This document shows positions 4,416 to 26,892 of a DNA stretch of 34,973 nt, one piece after another (position 1 is the first letter of the stretch; every line of letters begins with the position of its first letter). The notes beneath the pieces are model-generated. The model saw only the letters and a program-made list of their open reading frames with translations. It was not told the origin of the DNA and made no database searches. The DNA is taken from assembly GCA_025356035.1 (NCBI GenBank), contig JANXYN010000119.1, forward strand, positions 1-34,973, written 5' to 3'. A program made the translations under genes and the position numbers. Source of the DNA: Geobacteraceae bacterium (GTDB lineage Bacteria; Desulfobacterota; Desulfuromonadia; Geobacterales; Geobacteraceae).

Positions 4416-4440
4416 CTGAAAACCTCATTTTTTGGAAAGC

Positions 4441-4515
4441 AGAATCCAGGATTCAGGAGCCAGGAGTCAGAATGAAAACCTTCTGGATTCTGAATTCTGG
4501 CTCCTGACTCCTGAC
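4441..4515. repeat. Inverted heptamer array (locus a)
   Basis: Five 7-bp units of the type AGRAKYC read rightward (4441-4475), then a 5-bp core AAACC, then five units of the type TYCTGRM (4481-4515) that are the inverted counterpart. The whole can fold into a long imperfect hairpin. It ends exactly at the stop codon of etfA and fills the gap to the membrane oxidoreductase gene. Confidence 0.85.
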
Positions 4516-5850
4516 TTATTGACCCTTAGCCTGTTTCAGCTCCCGGACCCTCCTGGTGATGGCCGGGATGATCTGGAACAGGTCGCCAACCAGGCCGTAG
4601 GTGGCCACCTGGAAGATGGGGGCGTCCTTGTCCCGGTTGATGGCGATGATCAGGTCCGAGTCCTGCATCCCGACCAGATGCTGAATGGCGCCGGAGATGC
4701 CACAGGCGATGTAGACCTTCGGCCGGACAGTCTTGCCGGTCTGCCCCACCTGGCGGTCAGCTGGCATCCAGCCGGCATCAACCGCGCTGCGTGAGGCACC
4801 TACCACCCCCCCAACTTCGTTTGCCAACTCCTGGAGCATGGCAAAATTCTCCTTCCCCATCATGCCACGGCCGCCCGAGATGATAAATTCAGCCCCCGCG
4901 ATGTCGATCTGCTCCCCTTGCTTGTCACTGATCACCTGCAGGACCCTGATGAGGAGCTCTTCCTCCCGCAGCGGTAGATCAACCCTGACAATCTCCCCAG
5001 TGGCGCCCGGCATATGCTCCGGCATGGACATAACGTGGGGACGGACGGTGGACATCTGTGGCCGGTAATGGTCGCAGACAATGGTCGCCATGATGTTACC
5101 GCCGAACGCGGGCCGAGTCTGGAGCAGGTTACGTTTTTCGTCAATGGCAAGACCGGTGCAGTCGGCGGTGAGGCCGGTCTGCAGGCGGGTTGCCACGGCG
5201 CCGGCCAGGTCCCGGCCAAGGCCGGTGGCACCCATCAGGATGATCTCCGGCTGGTACTTCCCCACCAGATAGCTGACTGCCTCCAGATAGGAGGCAGTGC
5301 GGTAATGTTTGAACACCGGCGCATCGACCAGGTAGACCTTTTGCGCGCCGTAGGCGAAAGCCTCGTCGCAGAGATGCCCGACCTGGTCCCCGACGACCAC
5401 GGCGCAAAGCTCGACGTTCAAATCCCGGGCCAGTAGCCCCCCGGCCCAGAGTAATTCCCACGAGACCTTGGCCGCCTCTCCGCCGGTCTGTTCAACAAAA
5501 ACCCAGACCCCTTGATAGGCCGCCAGTTTTTGCCGCAACTGGGCTTCTTCATCACTGATCTCCACCGCAACCGGGGGTGCACCTGCCTGTTCCTGCAGTT
5601 TTTTCAGCTCAGCCAGAACCTGCTTTTCTTCCAGGGTAAAAAACATCTCCAGGGCCGTTACTGGACAGGCCTTAACACACTTGGCGCAGCCGATGCACTT
5701 GCCAAAATCAATGATCGGCTCGCCCTTTTCGTTCATCTCCACGGCATCGACCGGGCAGGCGCTCTGGCAGCGGGCTCCGCAGGCAATACAACTGTTATCG
5801 ATGAGACGTGCAGTGCCGCGTGGCTTCTTCGGTGGTTTCTGTTCGGCCAT
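4516..5850 (-). CDS. etfA: Electron transfer flavoprotein alpha subunit with N-terminal ferredoxin domain
   Basis: The 444-residue product starts with two 4Fe-4S motifs: C21-C24-C28-C32 (spacing Cx2Cx3Cx3CP, one residue longer than usual) and C52-C55-C58-C62 (standard). A linker leads to the Etf alpha N-terminal domain (about 115-300). The C-terminal FAD domain (about 315-440) has the signature around C-G-I-S-G-A-I-Q-H and A-I-N-R-D-K-D-A-P-I-F. Plain EtfA is about 310-330 residues, so the length is explained by the ferredoxin extension, known from Etfs of anaerobes. With EtfB it accepts electrons from acyl-CoA dehydrogenases and passes them to the membrane protein encoded next. AAGGA precedes the ATG by 8 nt. 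The intervals on both sides hold heptamer arrays rather than promoters. Confidence 0.93.
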   Translation of the reverse strand: MAEQKPPKKPRGTARLIDNSCIACGARCQSACPVDAVEMNEKGEPIIDFGKCIGCAKCVKACPVTALEMFFTLEEKQVLAELKKLQEQAGAPPVAVEISDEEAQLRQKLAAYQGVWVFVEQTGGEAAKVSWELLWAGGLLARDLNVELCAVVVGDQVGHLCDEAFAYGAQKVYLVDAPVFKHYRTASYLEAVSYLVGKYQPEIILMGATGLGRDLAGAVATRLQTGLTADCTGLAIDEKRNLLQTRPAFGGNIMATIVCDHYRPQMSTVRPHVMSMPEHMPGATGEIVRVDLPLREEELLIRVLQVISDKQGEQIDIAGAEFIISGGRGMMGKENFAMLQELANEVGGVVGASRSAVDAGWMPADRQVGQTGKTVRPKVYIACGISGAIQHLVGMQDSDLIIAINRDKDAPIFQVATYGLVGDLFQIIPAITRRVRELKQAKGQ

Positions 5851-5874: not shown

Positions 5875-6033
5875 AGAATCCAGGAGCCAGGATTCAGGAG
5901 CCAGAATGAAGATCTTCAGGCTTCTGACTTCTGACTTCTGACTTCTGACTTCTGACTTCTGACTTCTGGCTTCTGGCTTCTGGCTTCTGGCTTCTGGCTT
6001 CTGGCTTCTGACTCCTGGCTCCTGGCTCCTTTG
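5875..6033. repeat. Inverted heptamer array (locus b), expanded right arm
   Basis: The left arm has five units (AGAATCC, AGGAGCC, AGGATTC, AGGAGCC, AGAATGA) and the core is AGATC. The right arm begins TTCAGGC. From 5922 to 6026 it then holds 15 perfect-period units: six TTCTGAC, six TTCTGGC, one TTCTGAC and two TCCTGGC. It ends with TCCTTTG. The other loci have four or five right units, so this arm has grown by tandem duplication. It lies between etfB and etfA. Confidence 0.9.
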
Positions 6034-8904: not shown

Positions 8905-8971
8905 AGAATTCAGGAGCCAGAATCCAGGAGCCAGAAGAAAACCTTCTGACTCCTGACTCCTGACTCCTTTG
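8905..8971. repeat. Inverted heptamer array (locus c)
   Basis: The left units are AGAATTC, AGGAGCC, AGAATCC, AGGAGCC and AGAAGAA (8905-8939), the core is AACC, and the right units are TTCTGAC, TCCTGAC, TCCTGAC and TCCTTTG (8944-8971). It lies between the argC stop and ygiQ. The left start AGAATTC and right end TCCTTTG are shared with locus d. Confidence 0.85.
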
Positions 8972-10057: not shown

Positions 10058-10131
10058 AGAATTCAGGAGCCAGGAGTCAGAATCCAGAAGGTTTTATTCT
10101 GGCTCCTGACTCCTGGCTTCTGGCTCCTTTG
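10058..10131. repeat. Inverted heptamer array (locus d)
   Basis: The left units are AGAATTC, AGGAGCC, AGGAGTC, AGAATCC and AGAAGG (10058-10091), the core is TTTTA, and the right units are TTCTGGC, TCCTGAC, TCCTGGC, TTCTGGC and TCCTTTG (10097-10131). It lies between rpsI and argC. The core is the inverse of that in loci a and c, so this copy is flipped or was rearranged. Confidence 0.85.
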
Positions 10132-11961: not shown

Positions 11962-12028
11962 CTTCGACTCCGCTCGGGGAACGTGCGACTCCGCTCAGGG
12001 AACGTGCGTGCGCCGAGCGGAGTCGAAG
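11962..12028. repeat. 16-bp inverted repeat with a 21-bp tandem duplication
   Basis: CTTCGACTCCGCTCGG (11962-11977) is repeated in perfect inversion at 12013-12028. Between them a 21-bp unit beginning CGACTCCGCTC occurs twice in tandem (11965-11985 and 11986-12006) with one difference. This type of dyad is common between genes in many bacteria. It lies between asd and truA and could stop or stabilise the asd transcript. Confidence 0.8.
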
Positions 12029-12034
12029 CGTTAT

Positions 12035-13054
12035 TCATTTAAGATATTTCTCGATCAGGATTTCGGCAATCTGCACCGCATTGGTGGCCGCCCCCTTACG
12101 GATATTGTCCGCCACCACCCAGAGATTGAGTCCGTTCTCGATCGACTCGTCCTCGCGAATCCTCCCGACAAAGGTCAGATCCTGGCCGGCGACGTCAAGC
12201 GGCATCGGGTAGACCCTGTTCGTCACGTCGTCCACCAGTTTTACCCCGGGTGCACTGGTCAGGAGTTCCATCGCCTTAACGACGGTGAGCTTCTTCTCGG
12301 TCTCGATGTTCACCGCTTCGGAATGGCCATAGAAGACCGGCACCCGCACAGCGGTGGCGGTGACGCCGATCTCCGCCCCCATGATCTTCCTGGTTTCAAA
12401 GACCATCTTCATCTCTTCCTTGGTGTAGCCATTGGGGCCGAAGGAGTCGATCTGCGGCAGGCAGTTGAAGGCGATCTGGTATGGATAGACTTTTGCCTTG
12501 GCCGGCCGGCCGTTCAGCAGTTCCCCCACCTGGATGCGCAGCTCCTCAATCGCCTTCTTGCCGGTGCCAGAAACCGCCTGGTAGGTGGAGACCACGATCC
12601 GCTTGATCTTCGCGTAGTCGTGCAGCGGCTTCAGCGCAACCACCATCTGGATCGTGGAACAGTTGGGGTTGGAGATAATCCCCTTCTTGGTGTACTGGGC
12701 GATGGCGTGGGCGTTCACCTCGGGGACCACCAGCGGCACATCGTTATCCATCCGCCAGGCACTGGAGTTGTCGATGCAAACCGCCCCGGCTCTTGCCGCC
12801 GAAGGGCAGAACTCCTTGGCACGCTCGCCGCCGGCCGAAAACAGGACGATATCGATCCCCTCAAAGGAGTCGTGCTTCAACTCTTCAACCAAAACCGACT
12901 TCCCCTTGAACTCCAGGATCTCGCCGGCGCTCAGCTCACTGGCCAGATATCTGATCTTTCCGACCGGGAAATTGCGCTCTTCGAGACACTCGATCATCTG
13001 CTTGCCGACCACGCCGGTTGCACCGACGACAGCTACATTCCATAATTTGCCCAT
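12035..13054 (-). CDS. asd: Aspartate-semialdehyde dehydrogenase, Gram-positive/archaeal-like class
   Basis: The enzyme reduces aspartyl phosphate to aspartate semialdehyde, the branch point to lysine/diaminopimelate, threonine and methionine. The 339-residue product shows V-A-V-V-G-A-T-G-V-V-G (NADP binding, residues 7-17), catalytic Cys132 in N-P-N-C-S-T-I-Q, the Y-Q-A-V-S-G-T-G segment near 175 and R-V-P-V-F-Y-G-H-S-E-A-V carrying the substrate-binding Arg and active-site His. All key residues are present. GAGGAG lies 8 nt before the ATG. A second asd gene of a different class lies immediately upstream, so the pair is not a recent duplication. A TATAAT hexamer (13142-13137) is a possible -10 box, but no good -35 box fits it. 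Confidence 0.94.
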   Translation of the reverse strand: MGKLWNVAVVGATGVVGKQMIECLEERNFPVGKIRYLASELSAGEILEFKGKSVLVEELKHDSFEGIDIVLFSAGGERAKEFCPSAARAGAVCIDNSSAWRMDNDVPLVVPEVNAHAIAQYTKKGIISNPNCSTIQMVVALKPLHDYAKIKRIVVSTYQAVSGTGKKAIEELRIQVGELLNGRPAKAKVYPYQIAFNCLPQIDSFGPNGYTKEEMKMVFETRKIMGAEIGVTATAVRVPVFYGHSEAVNIETEKKLTVVKAMELLTSAPGVKLVDDVTNRVYPMPLDVAGQDLTFVGRIREDESIENGLNLWVVADNIRKGAATNAVQIAEILIEKYLK

Positions 13055-13159
13055 GTTCCGACTCCTCTATCAATGGCCGCCTTGGTTGGTCGGCCCTGCT
13101 TTTGTAACGAGTGGCCTGGTTTACGGCCCCCTGCGGATTATAACGCCAAAAATGAAAAG

Positions 13160-13177
13160 CGCCCCATGGCAGGGGCG
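13160..13177 (-). terminator. Terminator after the leuB-asd pair
   Basis: On the minus strand CGCCCC and GGGGCG pair around a 6-nt loop and are followed by a T-rich run (TTTTCATTTTT). It lies 34 nt after the stop of the upstream asd gene. Confidence 0.75.
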
Positions 13178-13211
13178 ACATTTCTTGCGTTATTCCATCT
13201 GACTCAAAAAA

Positions 13212-14309
13212 CTACTTCTCCATCAGAATGCGCAGCATCCGCCGCAAGGGCTCTGCAGCCCCCCAGAGGAGTTGGTCGCCACAGGTAAAGGCCTGCACAT
13301 ACTGGGGTCCCATCTTCATCTTGCGCAGGCGGCCGATGGGAACTGTGAGAGCCCCAGAGACTGCCGCCGGGGTGAGTTGGGCCAAAGTTTCAGCCTTGGT
13401 GTTGGGTACCAGTTTGACCCACTGGTTATCGTTTTTGATCAGGTTTTCGAGGTCGGCGAGCGGCAGGTCCTTGTTCAGCTTGATGGTCAAGGCCTGGCTG
13501 TGGCAGCGCATGGCGCTGACCCGCACACAGATGCCATCAACTGGAATAGGCTTAGCGCTGCCGAGAATCTTGTTGGTCTCGGCGTAACCTTTCCACTCCT
13601 CGCGGCTCTGGCCATCCTCCACCTCCCGGTCGATCCAGGGAAGCACATTCCCCGCCAGCGGGTTACCAAACTCCTTCTTCGGCATGGCGTCGCTACGCAG
13701 GGTGGCGGTGACCTGCCGGTCGATATCGAGAATGGCCGACGAGGGGTTCTTCAGCAGGGTGGCGACCGAACCGTGCAGGACCCCCATCTGGTCGAGCAGT
13801 TCGCGCATATTAGGAGCGCCGGCGCCGGAAGCGGCCTGGTAGGTCATGGAAGAGAGCCACTCTACGAGATTGGCGCGGAACAGCCCGCCCAAAGCCATCA
13901 GCATCAAGCTGACGGTGCAGTTACCGCCGATGAAATCCTTCTCCCCCTTGGCCAGGGCGGCGTCGATGACATTGCGGTTGACCGGGTCAAGAATGATCAC
14001 CGCATTTGGCTCCATTCGCAGCGTGCTGGCCGCGTCGATCCAATAACCCTGCCAGCCGGCTTTGCGCAGCGCCGGGTGAATCGCCTTGGTGTAGTCCCCT
14101 CCCTGACAGGTGAGGATCACATCCAGCTTTTTCAGCTCCGCGAGATCATCGGCATTCTTGAGGGTCCCGGCATTCATGGGGGCAGGCTGCCCCGCCTGGG
14201 AGGTGGAGAAGAATACCGGTTCAATCCCCGCAAAATCGTTCTCCTCCTGCATGCGCTGCAAAAGGACCGAGCCTACCATGCCACGCCAACCGATAAGTCC
14301 GACTTTCAT
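13212..14309 (-). CDS. asd: Aspartate-semialdehyde dehydrogenase, proteobacterial (E. coli-like) class
   Basis: The 365-residue product is the long class typified by the E. coli enzyme: [14 protein letters not shown] at the start, C-Q-G-G-D-Y-T near 68, Cys131 in [10 protein letters not shown], and [12 protein letters not shown] with the active-site His. All catalytic positions appear intact. AAAGGAAA precedes the ATG. It shares only the fold with the downstream asd. Two intact, differing enzymes for one step suggest separate coenzyme preference, regulation or pathway use, or one gained by transfer. It is downstream of leuB, separated by 192 bp that hold an imperfect inverted repeat. Confidence 0.94.
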
Positions 14310-17471: not shown

Positions 17472-17573
17472 GAAAAGCTCCAGATGCAAGGCGCGCGAGG
17501 ACCGGGACGCGAGGCGCACTGAAGGTACGTTGAGCGTCACGGCCCGCAGCGCAACGCCGCAGATGGACTTTTA
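17472..17573. repeat. About 100-bp dispersed dyad element downstream of hpnN
   Basis: The ends AAAAGCTCCAGATGCAAGG and CGCCGCAGATGGACTTTT are imperfect inverses, and the inside is also roughly symmetrical. The pattern is familiar to me as a very common intergenic dyad of proteobacteria. It overlaps the hpnN stop codon and lies before the methyltransferase, so it may end or protect the hpnN transcript. Confidence 0.7.
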
Positions 17574-20321
17574 TCGGAGCCGTTTTTTCTCGGCCAGGGT
17601 CAGCAGCGCTGGCAGCACGACGATGAATGCGACAAGACAGGCCACCATCCCGAGGGACATGACTGCGCCGATACTGAAAACCCCCTGGTGGTGCGCCACC
17701 ATCAGGGCACCAAAGCTCGCCAGGATGGTGAGGGTGTTGAAGATTACCCCTTGCCCGGCGCTCCTGGTCACCACCTCCACGGCGGTCTCGTGCTCGCGGC
17801 GGAAGCGGTTGATGATGTAGATACCGGAGTCGATCCCGACCCCGAGCACCAGTGGCATCACGATGATATTTGCCGAGTTGAAGCTGATGCCGAACAGCCA
17901 CATGCCGCTGATCATGAAGAACAGGCCGATCACCAGCGTCAGCAAGCCGATGCAGGCATATTTCAGGCTCCTGAAGGTAATCAACAAGATGGCGATAATG
18001 GCGAGAAACGCATAGAAAAAGGCCCAACGGTAGGCATCGCGCATGATGGTCATCGATTCGTAGACCATGATCGGCTCTCCGGTGACGTTGGCATCGACGC
18101 TACGGATATCGTCGATAAAGCGTTTCAACGGCGCCAGATCGAAAATCATCCCCTTTGGCGCCACCTGGATCAGGTACTGGCCGGTTTTACCGATAAAGCG
18201 GCTCCGCAGCTCCGGCGGGATATCAGACACCTTTACCGGCGAGGCATCGAGGCTCTCCTTGAGAAACTCGATCTTCTCCGGCAGGCTAGCCAGCATCCCA
18301 CCCTGAAACTCCTCCAGCATGCCACGGGCATTGCTGTCCCGGTTTTTTTCCAGTCTGGCAAAAAAGGCGTCGAGGGTAGTCAGGAATGCCCCCACTTCCC
18401 TCGCTTCGCCCTTCCCATCCCTTGCCAGGCGTAGCTTCAGCCGTTCCACTGCGTTCCGGAAATTTTCGAATACCGTCGGCAACGCCATGACGTTGAGCGC
18501 ATCGTCATATTTACCCGGCTTGACATCGTCCAGAAGCGCCCGGATCGCCCGCAGCTCCCTGAGCTTCTGCTCCTGGTCTTCTGGCACAAAGGTATTGAGG
18601 CTCACAACGTGATCAACCGTCGGCAGCGCTTCCAGTGCCCGCCCTTTGGCTGCAGCTTCAGCGGCTGAAGATGCGCTGACTACGGCAAAATAGCCGGCAT
18701 TCTCCGCGCTGGTCATCAGCTTGTAGGCGTACTTAACCGACTCCAACCCCTTGGCCTGCAGGTTCATCAGGTTATAGTCGAAACTTACCCGGCTGATCGG
18801 GTAGAGGGAGGCGGCACATAATATCACGGTCACTGCCAGCACCACCCGCGGCTTGCCAAACAGCAGCTGCTGTATTTTAGGGACCAGGGACCGGGAACCA
18901 GAAAGCAGGCCTGATCTTTTGCCTTTACTGCCTTTACCGGTCCCCGGTTCCCGGTTCCCGAGTCCCGAGTCCCGAGTCCCGGCCTTGCGATATTTAGCCA
19001 GCAGCACCAGCATGGCAGGGAGGACGGTGAAGGTGGTGAGGACGCAGATGATGATGCCACTCCCCGCAATGATCCCCAATTCGGCAACGCCCTTGAAGTC
19101 GGTGAAAACGAAGGTGAGGAACGCCGCCGCCGTTGTGGCCGCCGCCATGACAATGGCCCAGATGTTCTTTTCCAGCCCGACCCGGATCGCTTCCAGCTCG
19201 CTGGCCCCGCCAGCCAACTCTTCCTGATAGCGGAGCACCAGCTGAATGCCGTACTCGACCCCGATCCCGACCAGCATCACTGCAAAAACCATAGAGAGGA
19301 TATTCAGGTGGCCGATCGCCAGGGTGGCAAAACCGAACGATACGGCGATGCCAATCAGCAGGGAGACCATGGCAGCAGTAACATTCAGAATCCCGCGGAA
19401 GGCTATGAGGAGCAGCATTACCGTCAGGACGATGGAAAGCACCAGCGCCAGATCGATGTCGCGCTTGCTGGTGGCCATCTCTTCAAACTCCAGCACCGGC
19501 GTGCCGGTGAGCCCCGCCGTTACTCCCCTGAACTCCGGTTTGGCGGAGAGCGTCTTGAGCTCCGCCCAAATCACCTTAATGGCCTTTTCCGCCGGCACGA
19601 AGCTACCGTTGTCTTTGACCGGCAGTGCTGTCAGAACCTGCATCCGACCGGCCTTTGCCAGCTGCGACTCCTCGCCGTTTGCGTTCTGGGAAAAAAACTC
19701 GTTGAAGGTAAAGGCTGCCTTTCCCCCATCGAACTGCTGCAGCCCCTTCTCCAGCCCCTTCAAGGTAAACACCAGACTTGCCAGCTCCTGGTTGGCACCG
19801 GCAGAGTTGCCGCTGCGGCCTGTATAACCATCCATCCTGCGGGTGAGAGAGGAAAATAGGGTTTCCACCGAGGGTGAGGCAGCGAGTTCCTTGATCATCG
19901 GCTTTGCCAGTGCAAGATTTGCATGGAGGGTCTGCAGGTCGGCAAGAGGGAGGAGCAGCAGGCCATTCTTCTTGAAGAAGGGGAGCCCGTAGGGGTAAAA
20001 CACCTCCCGAATGCTCTGCTTGTCGCCCTGCAGCCGTCCATAGAGCTCTTCGCCAAAACGGGCAGCCTTTTCCTGATCCTCGGACTCGATGACCACCACG
20101 ATATCTTCCATGTCGCCAAACTCCTGGCGATATGCCCGATAGTCGGCGTGGAATTTGGTATTCTTCGGCATCAGGTCGTCCCTGCCGGTGAGAAACTCCA
20201 TCTTCTGGGTGGTATAGAGAATTGACAAGGCGGCCAGCAGAAGCGCTGCCGCCAAAATCAGGCGGGGATGGCGCATGATAAAACCGAACGGCCCCCGATA
20301 ATCGGCGTGAGAATTGGACAT
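17571..20321 (-). CDS. hpnN: Hopanoid RND transporter HpnN
   Basis: The 916-residue product is an RND/MMPL-type inner-membrane protein. It has a helix at about 14-34, a large periplasmic domain, membrane bundles at about 285-440 and 745-905, and a second periplasmic domain between them. HpnN moves hopanoids toward the outer membrane. Motifs include G-R-D-D-L-M-P-K-N-T near residue 46 and G-V-G-I-D-S-G-I-Y-I-I-N-R-F in the second bundle. GAGGG is 10 nt before the ATG. Residues about 447-481 are encoded by a heptamer array (18880-18982) and form a G/R/S/K-rich stretch on the cytoplasmic side between the two halves. The frame stays open and the gene looks intact. It diverges from shc. Confidence 0.92.
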   Translation of the reverse strand: MSNSHADYRGPFGFIMRHPRLILAAALLLAALSILYTTQKMEFLTGRDDLMPKNTKFHADYRAYRQEFGDMEDIVVVIESEDQEKAARFGEELYGRLQGDKQSIREVFYPYGLPFFKKNGLLLLPLADLQTLHANLALAKPMIKELAASPSVETLFSSLTRRMDGYTGRSGNSAGANQELASLVFTLKGLEKGLQQFDGGKAAFTFNEFFSQNANGEESQLAKAGRMQVLTALPVKDNGSFVPAEKAIKVIWAELKTLSAKPEFRGVTAGLTGTPVLEFEEMATSKRDIDLALVLSIVLTVMLLLIAFRGILNVTAAMVSLLIGIAVSFGFATLAIGHLNILSMVFAVMLVGIGVEYGIQLVLRYQEELAGGASELEAIRVGLEKNIWAIVMAAATTAAAFLTFVFTDFKGVAELGIIAGSGIIICVLTTFTVLPAMLVLLAKYRKAGTRDSGLGNREPGTGKGSKGKRSGLLSGSRSLVPKIQQLLFGKPRVVLAVTVILCAASLYPISRVSFDYNLMNLQAKGLESVKYAYKLMTSAENAGYFAVVSASSAAEAAAKGRALEALPTVDHVVSLNTFVPEDQEQKLRELRAIRALLDDVKPGKYDDALNVMALPTVFENFRNAVERLKLRLARDGKGEAREVGAFLTTLDAFFARLEKNRDSNARGMLEEFQGGMLASLPEKIEFLKESLDASPVKVSDIPPELRSRFIGKTGQYLIQVAPKGMIFDLAPLKRFIDDIRSVDANVTGEPIMVYESMTIMRDAYRWAFFYAFLAIIAILLITFRSLKYACIGLLTLVIGLFFMISGMWLFGISFNSANIIVMPLVLGVGIDSGIYIINRFRREHETAVEVVTRSAGQGVIFNTLTILASFGALMVAHHQGVFSIGAVMSLGMVACLVAFIVVLPALLTLAEKKRLR
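18880..18982. repeat. Inverted heptamer array (locus e) inside hpnN
   Basis: The left arm has GGGACCA, GGGACCG, GGAACCA and GAAAGCA (18880-18907). After a 29-bp core the right arm has CCGGTCC, CCGGTTC twice and CCGAGTC three times, then CCGG (18937-18982). The plan is the same as in the intergenic arrays but with a different heptamer. It lies in a coding sequence without breaking the frame. Confidence 0.85.
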
Positions 20322-25749: not shown

Positions 25750-25877
25750 CGTGCGCCGTACGACGTGCGACGTTCACTGTGCGTCGTGCGAAATTATGAT
25801 AATTCCCGAGTACGTCGCACGTCTCACGAACCACTTAACATGCTGCACGTCGCACGTCGCACGTCGCACGAACCACG
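25750..25877. repeat. Inverted heptamer array (locus g)
   Basis: The left arm is built of CGTGCGA-type units (25750-25791). The core is an AT-rich near-palindrome around AATTATGATAATT. The right arm carries the inverse GCACGTC units, three of them in a row just before 25869. It lies between dxs and hpnH. The 7-bp period is clear though some units have diverged. Confidence 0.8.
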
Positions 25878-25893
25878 AAAGGATACTTAAAGC

Positions 25894-26892
25894 ATGCGTT
25901 TTCCCTGGCGACTCAATTACGACCTGACCAAATACATCGTCAAGAACAAGCTGAAAAAGATCGACAAATTTCCGCTGGTCCTGATGCTGGAACCCACCCA
26001 CCTCTGTAACCTCGCCTGTTCCGGTTGCGGCCGGATTCGCGAGTATGCCGGCACCATCAAGGAGATGATGTCGCTGGATGCATGCCTCGGCTCCGTCGAC
26101 CAGTGCCCGGCACCGGTGGTGACCATAACCGGCGGAGAACCGTTTCTCTACCCCCATGTCTATGAGCTGATCGAAGGGGTCCTGGAGCGTGGCAAGCATA
26201 TCTACCTCTGCACCAACGGCCTACTCCTTGACCAGGCCCTCGACCGGATGCGCCCCCACGACAATTTCACCCTTAATATTCACATGGATGGCCTGGAGGG
26301 GACTCACGACCGGATACTGGAGCGGAAAGGGACCTTCAAGACAGCCATCGAGGGGATCAAAAAGGCAAAAAAGCTCGGCTTCCGGGTCTGCACCAACACC
26401 ACCATCTTCAAGGAGACCGATCTGCTGGAGATCGAGATGCTCTTCTCGCTGTTGACCGAAATCGGCGTGGACGGCATCCTGGTGGCGCCCGGCTTCGGCT
26501 ACGAGGCAGTCGGCGAAAAACTGTTTCTGGAGCGGCGCGAAATCGAGAAGAAGTTCGAGCATGTTTTTGACTTGAGCAAGAAATTCCGCTTCTACTCCAC
26601 CCCCATGTACATGCAATTCCTCAAGGGGGAAAAGAAGCTGGAGTGTACGCCGTGGGGGAATCCGACCCGCAATCCACGCGGCTGGAAAGCCCCCTGCTAC
26701 CTGATCACCGACGAGCATTATCCGACCTATGGGGAGATGATGGCAAAGACCGACTGGGGCAAATACGGGGTAGGCAAGGACGAGCGCTGCGCCCAGTGCA
26801 TGATGCACTGCGGCTTCGAGCCGACCGTGGTGAGCGAGATTGGCAAGAGCTGGAAGGATATCTGGGAAATGATGAAGTGGAATATGTCGTAA
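25894..26892 (+). CDS. hpnH: Radical SAM adenosyl-hopene transferase HpnH
   Basis: HpnH adds an adenosyl unit to hopene, the first step toward side-chain-extended hopanoids. The 332-residue product has the radical SAM cluster motif C38-N-L-A-C42-S-G-C45, G-G-E-P near 74-77 (SAM binding), T-N-G-L-L near 109 and a C-terminal cysteine group (R-C-A-Q-C-M-M-H-C-G) near 295-304 that may hold a second cluster or metal. The start M-R-F-P-W-R-L is typical. AAGGA lies 10 nt upstream. It is the last gene of the hopanoid run and is closed by a terminator. Confidence 0.95.
   Translation: MRFPWRLNYDLTKYIVKNKLKKIDKFPLVLMLEPTHLCNLACSGCGRIREYAGTIKEMMSLDACLGSVDQCPAPVVTITGGEPFLYPHVYELIEGVLERGKHIYLCTNGLLLDQALDRMRPHDNFTLNIHMDGLEGTHDRILERKGTFKTAIEGIKKAKKLGFRVCTNTTIFKETDLLEIEMLFSLLTEIGVDGILVAPGFGYEAVGEKLFLERREIEKKFEHVFDLSKKFRFYSTPMYMQFLKGEKKLECTPWGNPTRNPRGWKAPCYLITDEHYPTYGEMMAKTDWGKYGVGKDERCAQCMMHCGFEPTVVSEIGKSWKDIWEMMKWNMS

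Follow-up and report, generated by a model that had tools for sequence, protein, structure and literature searches.

The question raised by this locus is how a tandem array of seven-nucleotide units, a repeat of intergenic type, came to lie in frame inside a transporter gene. Heptamer repeats occur widely among bacteria; to our knowledge, neither the reason for a seven-nucleotide period nor the way in which the repeats spread has been settled. The window, by which we mean the whole 34,973-nucleotide stretch of Geobacteraceae DNA that was analysed, carries on its minus strand (17571 to 20321) a gene for a 916-residue hopanoid-biosynthesis-associated RND transporter, hpnN. The protein scores 873.6 bits against TIGR03480 (cut-off 751.85), its best MMPL Pfam stretch stops at residue 444, and its nearest solved structures are 6wu0 and 5khn, both HpnN. 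The frame is intact over 916 codons from start to stop, with no internal stop. TRF finds two period-7 arrays here, numbered along the plus strand. The first arm, purine-rich and read from the minus strand (18937 to 18982), holds about six heptamers, with CGGGACT three times, CGGGAAC twice and GGGGACC on the coding strand. A 35-nucleotide spacer (18902 to 18936) separates it from the second, a pyrimidine-rich arm of about three heptamers (18879 to 18901) that is partly complementary to the first; as they stand on the opposite strand its units are AGGGACC and GGGAACC, and TRF counts 3.3 AGGGACC copies along the plus strand. The array is the top lag-7 run of the entire gene (score 30.5). The original prediction placed a frame-preserving, G/R/S/K-rich heptamer array at residues 447 to 481, between the two halves of the transporter; the array is real, positions 18982 to 18880 give those residues by arithmetic, and the composition, open frame and interdomain placement are all as described.

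In an AlphaFold2 model of HpnN (22 sequences, mean pLDDT 80.6), residues 448-479 are the sole interior segment with pLDDT below 50 and are flanked by helices 410-442 and 479-488; in the phmmer alignment with 6wu0 the linker is mostly gap. The array is thus predicted to occupy a disordered linker that joins the two transporter halves, a loop that, from general knowledge of RND transporters, we take to be cytoplasmic, between TM6 and TM7. For comparison across relatives, the linker was taken as codons 443-483 (18873 to 18995, minus strand).

The units of the array are dispersed in the window's genome (G000), where CGGGAMYCGGGAMY has 52 matches at 14 places. Three of these lie within genes that have a family match: hpnN, a fusion that we call cbiH-cobQ (our own reading of TP_methylase, CbiA and GATase_3 Pfam hits) and cbiD. 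Two of the 14 CGGGAMY places, C86:6512 and C195:3665, fall below the run cut-off, and the assignment to genes covers the others. Three further intragenic candidates were rejected, L120 and L127 because their arrays precede the start as read (phoU, hisH) and L118 for having no family match. CGGGAAT units are also present in this genome, and a search of a plasmid collection with the hpnN array gave no match. The intergenic arrays of the window are built of a different unit, CTYCTGR, with 139 matches in G000 and at most four in each of ten relatives. Four such inverted arrays, none assigned a strand, were called by TRF: one with the purine arm first at 4440 to 4516, one with a long pyrimidine arm between two electron-transfer-flavoprotein genes at 5880 to 6030, one between ygiQ-like and argC genes at 8905 to 8968, and one more intergenic array at 10064 to 10128. 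The purine arm comes first in all nine paired arrays seen in the window and 20 sampled stretches. Heptamer arrays also lie on contigs C2 (end), C175 (start), C161 (end) and C225 (near end); arrays at contig ends probably break the assembly and are hence undercounted.

To get a comparative perspective on the linker, we examined HpnN in relatives; a protein search matched 57 of 58 genomes, with 80 loci named from one contig scan, while a search by genus turned up no other genome from that of the window. The comparison covers 88 hpnN genes with both flanks, duplicates merged and the truncated L109 and L036 left out. The linker is hypervariable, and the array stretch is not conserved in sequence in distant HpnN proteins. 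In the window the linker is 41 codons long, whereas the median is 23 and five genes have a longer one; homologues had been predicted to be shorter by about 35 residues, which is half right, as the net excess is about 18 codons. The top lag-7 run falls in the linker in 19 of the 88 genes (2.8 expected by length; codon-shuffle mean 5.4, maximum 13, 200 shuffles) and the top lag-14 run in 23 (mean 3.5, maximum 8, 100 shuffles), while lags 6, 9 and 12 give 1, 1 and 4 genes. By the shuffle means, linkers are relaxed in sequence and start from a higher background of short repeats, which counts against the reading preferred below. Using a fixed run cut-off of 12, chosen after the data were seen in place of an eye-picked set (14 'hept' and 5 'oct' linkers), we found 12 runs in 6,606 nucleotides of linker versus three in 233,610 nucleotides elsewhere, all three in an ORF extension of L004, upstream of the residue where the HpnN match begins.

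The new finding is that heptamer arrays occupy the interdomain linker in 11 of the 88 hpnN genes, and that their units differ between genera. Besides those of the window, the units are CTCGAAC in L002-L004 (with CGGGAAC as well in L004), ACTCCTC in L006 and L008, ACCCCTC in L010, GCGCC types in L067, GGGGCCA and GGGGCAA in L092 and L095, and GGGGACC/T with ACCATTC in L106. With differently lettered heptamers at the same spot in relatives, the spot seems to have been overwritten repeatedly. Arm covariation between L006 and L008 was considered as a sign of a selected stem and dropped, as it amounts to one double change and five pair breaks.

Because a seven-nucleotide unit is not a multiple of three, slippage by a single unit would shift the frame, and the array could act as a contingency locus toggling HpnN off and on. 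The arrays of L002 and L003 do differ in length, by 42 nucleotides, but every linker compared is in frame (length modulo 3 is zero in all rows) and the arms hold just three to six units or so, which makes this explanation extremely improbable.

Another possible explanation is a selected structure in the hpnN message, a hairpin or G-quadruplex that would pause translation between the membrane halves or control expression. On the coding strand the region folds at -54.2 kcal/mol, folding energy is lowest for the linker (-46.9 kcal/mol, z -3.58) among 180 segments of 90 nucleotides scanned along the gene, six G3 tracts stand in a row, and the linker is the strongest fold of the gene in 9 of the 88 hpnN genes; heptamers of this type form G-quadruplexes in vitro (PMC4692102). 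We nevertheless regard such a role as very unlikely, given that 77 of the 88 genes have no array at the cut-off, that folding of the arms is weak in L004 and L095, and that several units lack G3 tracts.

Confinement to linkers is stronger still in the unrelated CbiH-CobQ fusion, which is also found in relatives. Among 28 uncut cbiH-cobQ genes (the cut loci L172 and L173 were left out), the top lag-7 run falls in one of the two interdomain linkers in 19, against a shuffled mean of 4.6 and maximum of 9 (100 shuffles), and lags 6 and 9 give 0 and 1 genes. All 28 runs of at least 12 are in linkers (17 of the 28 genes), with none in the 52,356 nucleotides outside. Three of the genes, L148, L149 and L154, come from one genus (g9) and have 91-95% flanking protein identity, yet carry unlike units.

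The units found in linkers tend to follow the genomes that bear them, as judged by doublet counts on both strands, in which the linker copies themselves are included. CGGGAMY doublets number 101 in G007 and 52 in G000, with at most three in the others. CTCGAAC doublets number 104 in G020, 73 in G025, 26 in G053, 25 in G007, 24 in G009, 15 in G045 and 3 in G015, with none in G000 and the remaining genomes. For CYCCTCA the counts are 103 in G007, 55 in G053, 31 in G045, 28 in G009, 26 in G015, 22 in G000, 17 in G011, 13 in G020 and zero in the rest, to be read beside a reversed-pattern control that is high in several genomes (14 in G015, against its 26). GGGGAMY doublets number 37 in the genome of L106 (Geomobilimonas luticola), 27 in G007 and 9-13 in the genomes of L081, L066, L057 and L080; CCATTCA doublets number 32 in the L106 genome, 5 in G007 and zero in three array-free sisters; and GGGCAAA doublets number 12 in G013, 10 in G007 and zero in G003, of the same genus as G013. 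For each of the six linker units tested, the richest genome has that unit in its own hpnN or cobQ linker. Possession of a unit does not entail its use there: G015 has CYCCTCA doublets and an hpnN linker with no array, and G053, G009 and G045 have CTCGAAC doublets that are not used in the hpnN linker.

These counts bear on the possibility that nothing moves, and that chance seeds simply grow by local slippage in weakly selected linkers. The arrays do lie in relaxed sequence, and heptamers are the commonest long simple repeats in most genomes examined in one study, where slippage was proposed (PMC4679880). Slippage alone is decidedly unlikely, however, in view of the peak of all six units in genomes that bear them in such a linker, the inverted layout and fixed polarity of paired arrays, and the loss of an entire old linker in L106.

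Upstream of the linker, L106 has 90-91% protein identity to the array-free L081, L066 and L057, and the linkers of L081 and L066 are 84% identical to each other. The L106 linker aligns to that of L081 with a score of -18 (shuffled mean -12) between flanks that are 88% identical, and likewise does no better than shuffles against L066, with a net gain of 11 codons over L081. The older linker has been replaced in this lineage, the array having taken its place rather than inserted cleanly; in this one case no target-site duplication and no clean insertion boundary were found between L106 and its array-free sisters. The replacement is unlike a MITE or REP element, for which clean insertion with a target duplication or defined ends would be expected. 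The empty site that was to be sought in related Geobacteraceae is not seen in clean form. Movement or rewriting of arrays is supported indirectly, by L106 versus its sisters and by the unit changes in cobQ within one genus, and the related arrays dispersed in G000 fit the earlier proposal that the element can move, although the clean insertion is missing.

Alternatively, each linker could have received one ancestral array, since inherited, with its units later homogenised by concerted evolution to the current unit of the genome; a single entry with later unit conversion would require no repeated insertion. In keeping with this, cobQ arrays are spread over three families of the order and parsimony requires 6 changes for them, against a shuffled mean of 8.9, so that a single ancestral array followed by losses may account for them, and the linkers of L158/L159, L152/L162 and L148/L149 keep similarity above shuffles. 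The 11 array-bearing hpnN genes need 8 changes on a quick maximum-likelihood tree built with the linker excluded, a figure at the bottom of the range of 8-11 changes given by 50 random sets of 11 genes, so shared descent explains part of their distribution. An ancestral array as the whole explanation is nonetheless unlikely: at 91-92% protein identity the L154 linker is no more alike to those of L148 and L149 than shuffles are, in hpnN an older linker survives unbroken in the array-free sisters of L106 but is gone from L106 itself, and the unlike units lack the homology that ordinary gene conversion requires.

The reading we prefer, with a probability of roughly 60%, is that in hpnN a dispersed heptamer element of G000, one that spreads between sites, has left a copy that is tolerated as linker filler. 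Such an element would have two arms of tandem seven-nucleotide units, the first purine-rich and the second pyrimidine-rich, with a short spacer between them, and the arms often could fold back on each other. Each genome's stock of units would keep spreading by the copying of short arrays, through recombination, template switching or a trans-acting enzyme, and replication slippage would afterwards alter the number of units. Selection would remove intragenic arrays except in frame-keeping linkers; the disordered HpnN linker would accept nearly any in-frame sequence, the array being translated as filler, and no function in HpnN need be supposed. A tentative and less probable variant is a heptamer-writing process, in which each lineage has a small set of units and its array-holding sites, protein linkers included, are rewritten to the current set without sequence homology to the previous array, keeping only the period of seven, the inverted arrangement in which the purine arm leads, and the frame.

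The original prediction also likened the array to the palindromic elements of Rickettsia, which are longer, are conserved in sequence and lie in frame inside genes. The in-frame coding presence is shared, but the Rickettsia element is conserved across copies whereas the hpnN linker units differ among relatives. The likeness is analogy only, because here one unit gives way to another from species to species and what is retained is the period and the place. The earlier reading was correct in the main and its interpretation is partly supported.

The array belongs to a known kind of element, since intragenic GGACCGG elements were reported in 2009: Gmet_H4 of Geobacter metallireducens (GGGACCG / GGACCGG) is a four-heptamer element with 49 copies, some intragenic, which the report on this single species presents as putative regulatory RNA (PMC2700814). 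Both are tandem (about four heptamers in Gmet_H4, about six plus three in hpnN) and multicopy, intergenic as well as intragenic, and the hpnN arms are related but not identical to GGACCGG, the published consensus with which they were compared. Neither protein linkers nor a change of unit between species is described in the available text of that report (PMC2700814). Its class 3 paired MTYCTGA sites, for which binding of a global regulator was proposed and IHF/HU suggested (PMC2700814), resemble the window's CTYCTGR arrays (about five heptamers, pairs on opposite strands) and differ in unit from the hpnN array. G-rich heptamers of the same kind are known in other bacterial groups: GGGAATC in Xanthomonas and GGGGA(C/T)T in Nostoc have at least four G3 tracts at period 7 and are able to form G-quadruplexes (PMC4692102), for which hpnN, with six tracts by sequence, is a candidate. 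The Xanthomonas repeats are dispersed and mostly intergenic (7-11% intragenic), 83% of Xcc repeats hold their place in Xac, and the accessible part of the account describes no exchange of units (PMC4692102). The TAACTGA repeats of Beggiatoaceae are likewise dispersed heptamers, and their authors suggest tolerance between modular protein parts, but they have one fixed unit, with stop codons in one orientation (PMC4679880). A full-text literature search, with most subscription papers outside it, returned no description of heptamer units being exchanged at protein linkers. Two linkers with changing units across one order provide fixed, alignable places where the flanking protein sequence serves as a clock for the gain and loss of arrays and the exchange of units, a dating hardly possible for intergenic copies, and they illustrate how intergenic repeats can turn into protein linkers.

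Several minor observations accompany these results. In one metagenome-assembled genome, hpnN (L036) lacks some 44 linker residues in frame, leaving the linker almost absent; it may be dispensable, or a repeat may have been collapsed during assembly. The hpnN linkers of five loci from another clade (L049, L065, L079, L099 and L075) hold a different inverted repeat family, called by eye (CCCTCTCCC-like, translated as PLPQGEGQGEG). Besides its heptamer array, the CbiD protein of G000 (P0003, locus L113, C26:11200-14200) has in its first third a TLTPALSQRERE stretch, presumably the translation of another common intergenic repeat. Within the window, positions 25750-25879 hold a partly inverted array of another unit (GCACGTC / CGTGCGA) upstream of an ORF starting at 25894, and an intergenic 21-nucleotide tandem repeat followed by an inverted piece lies at 11965-12025. 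At 12035-14309 two adjoining genes encode aspartate-semialdehyde dehydrogenases that differ in type (asd_B and asd_gamma).
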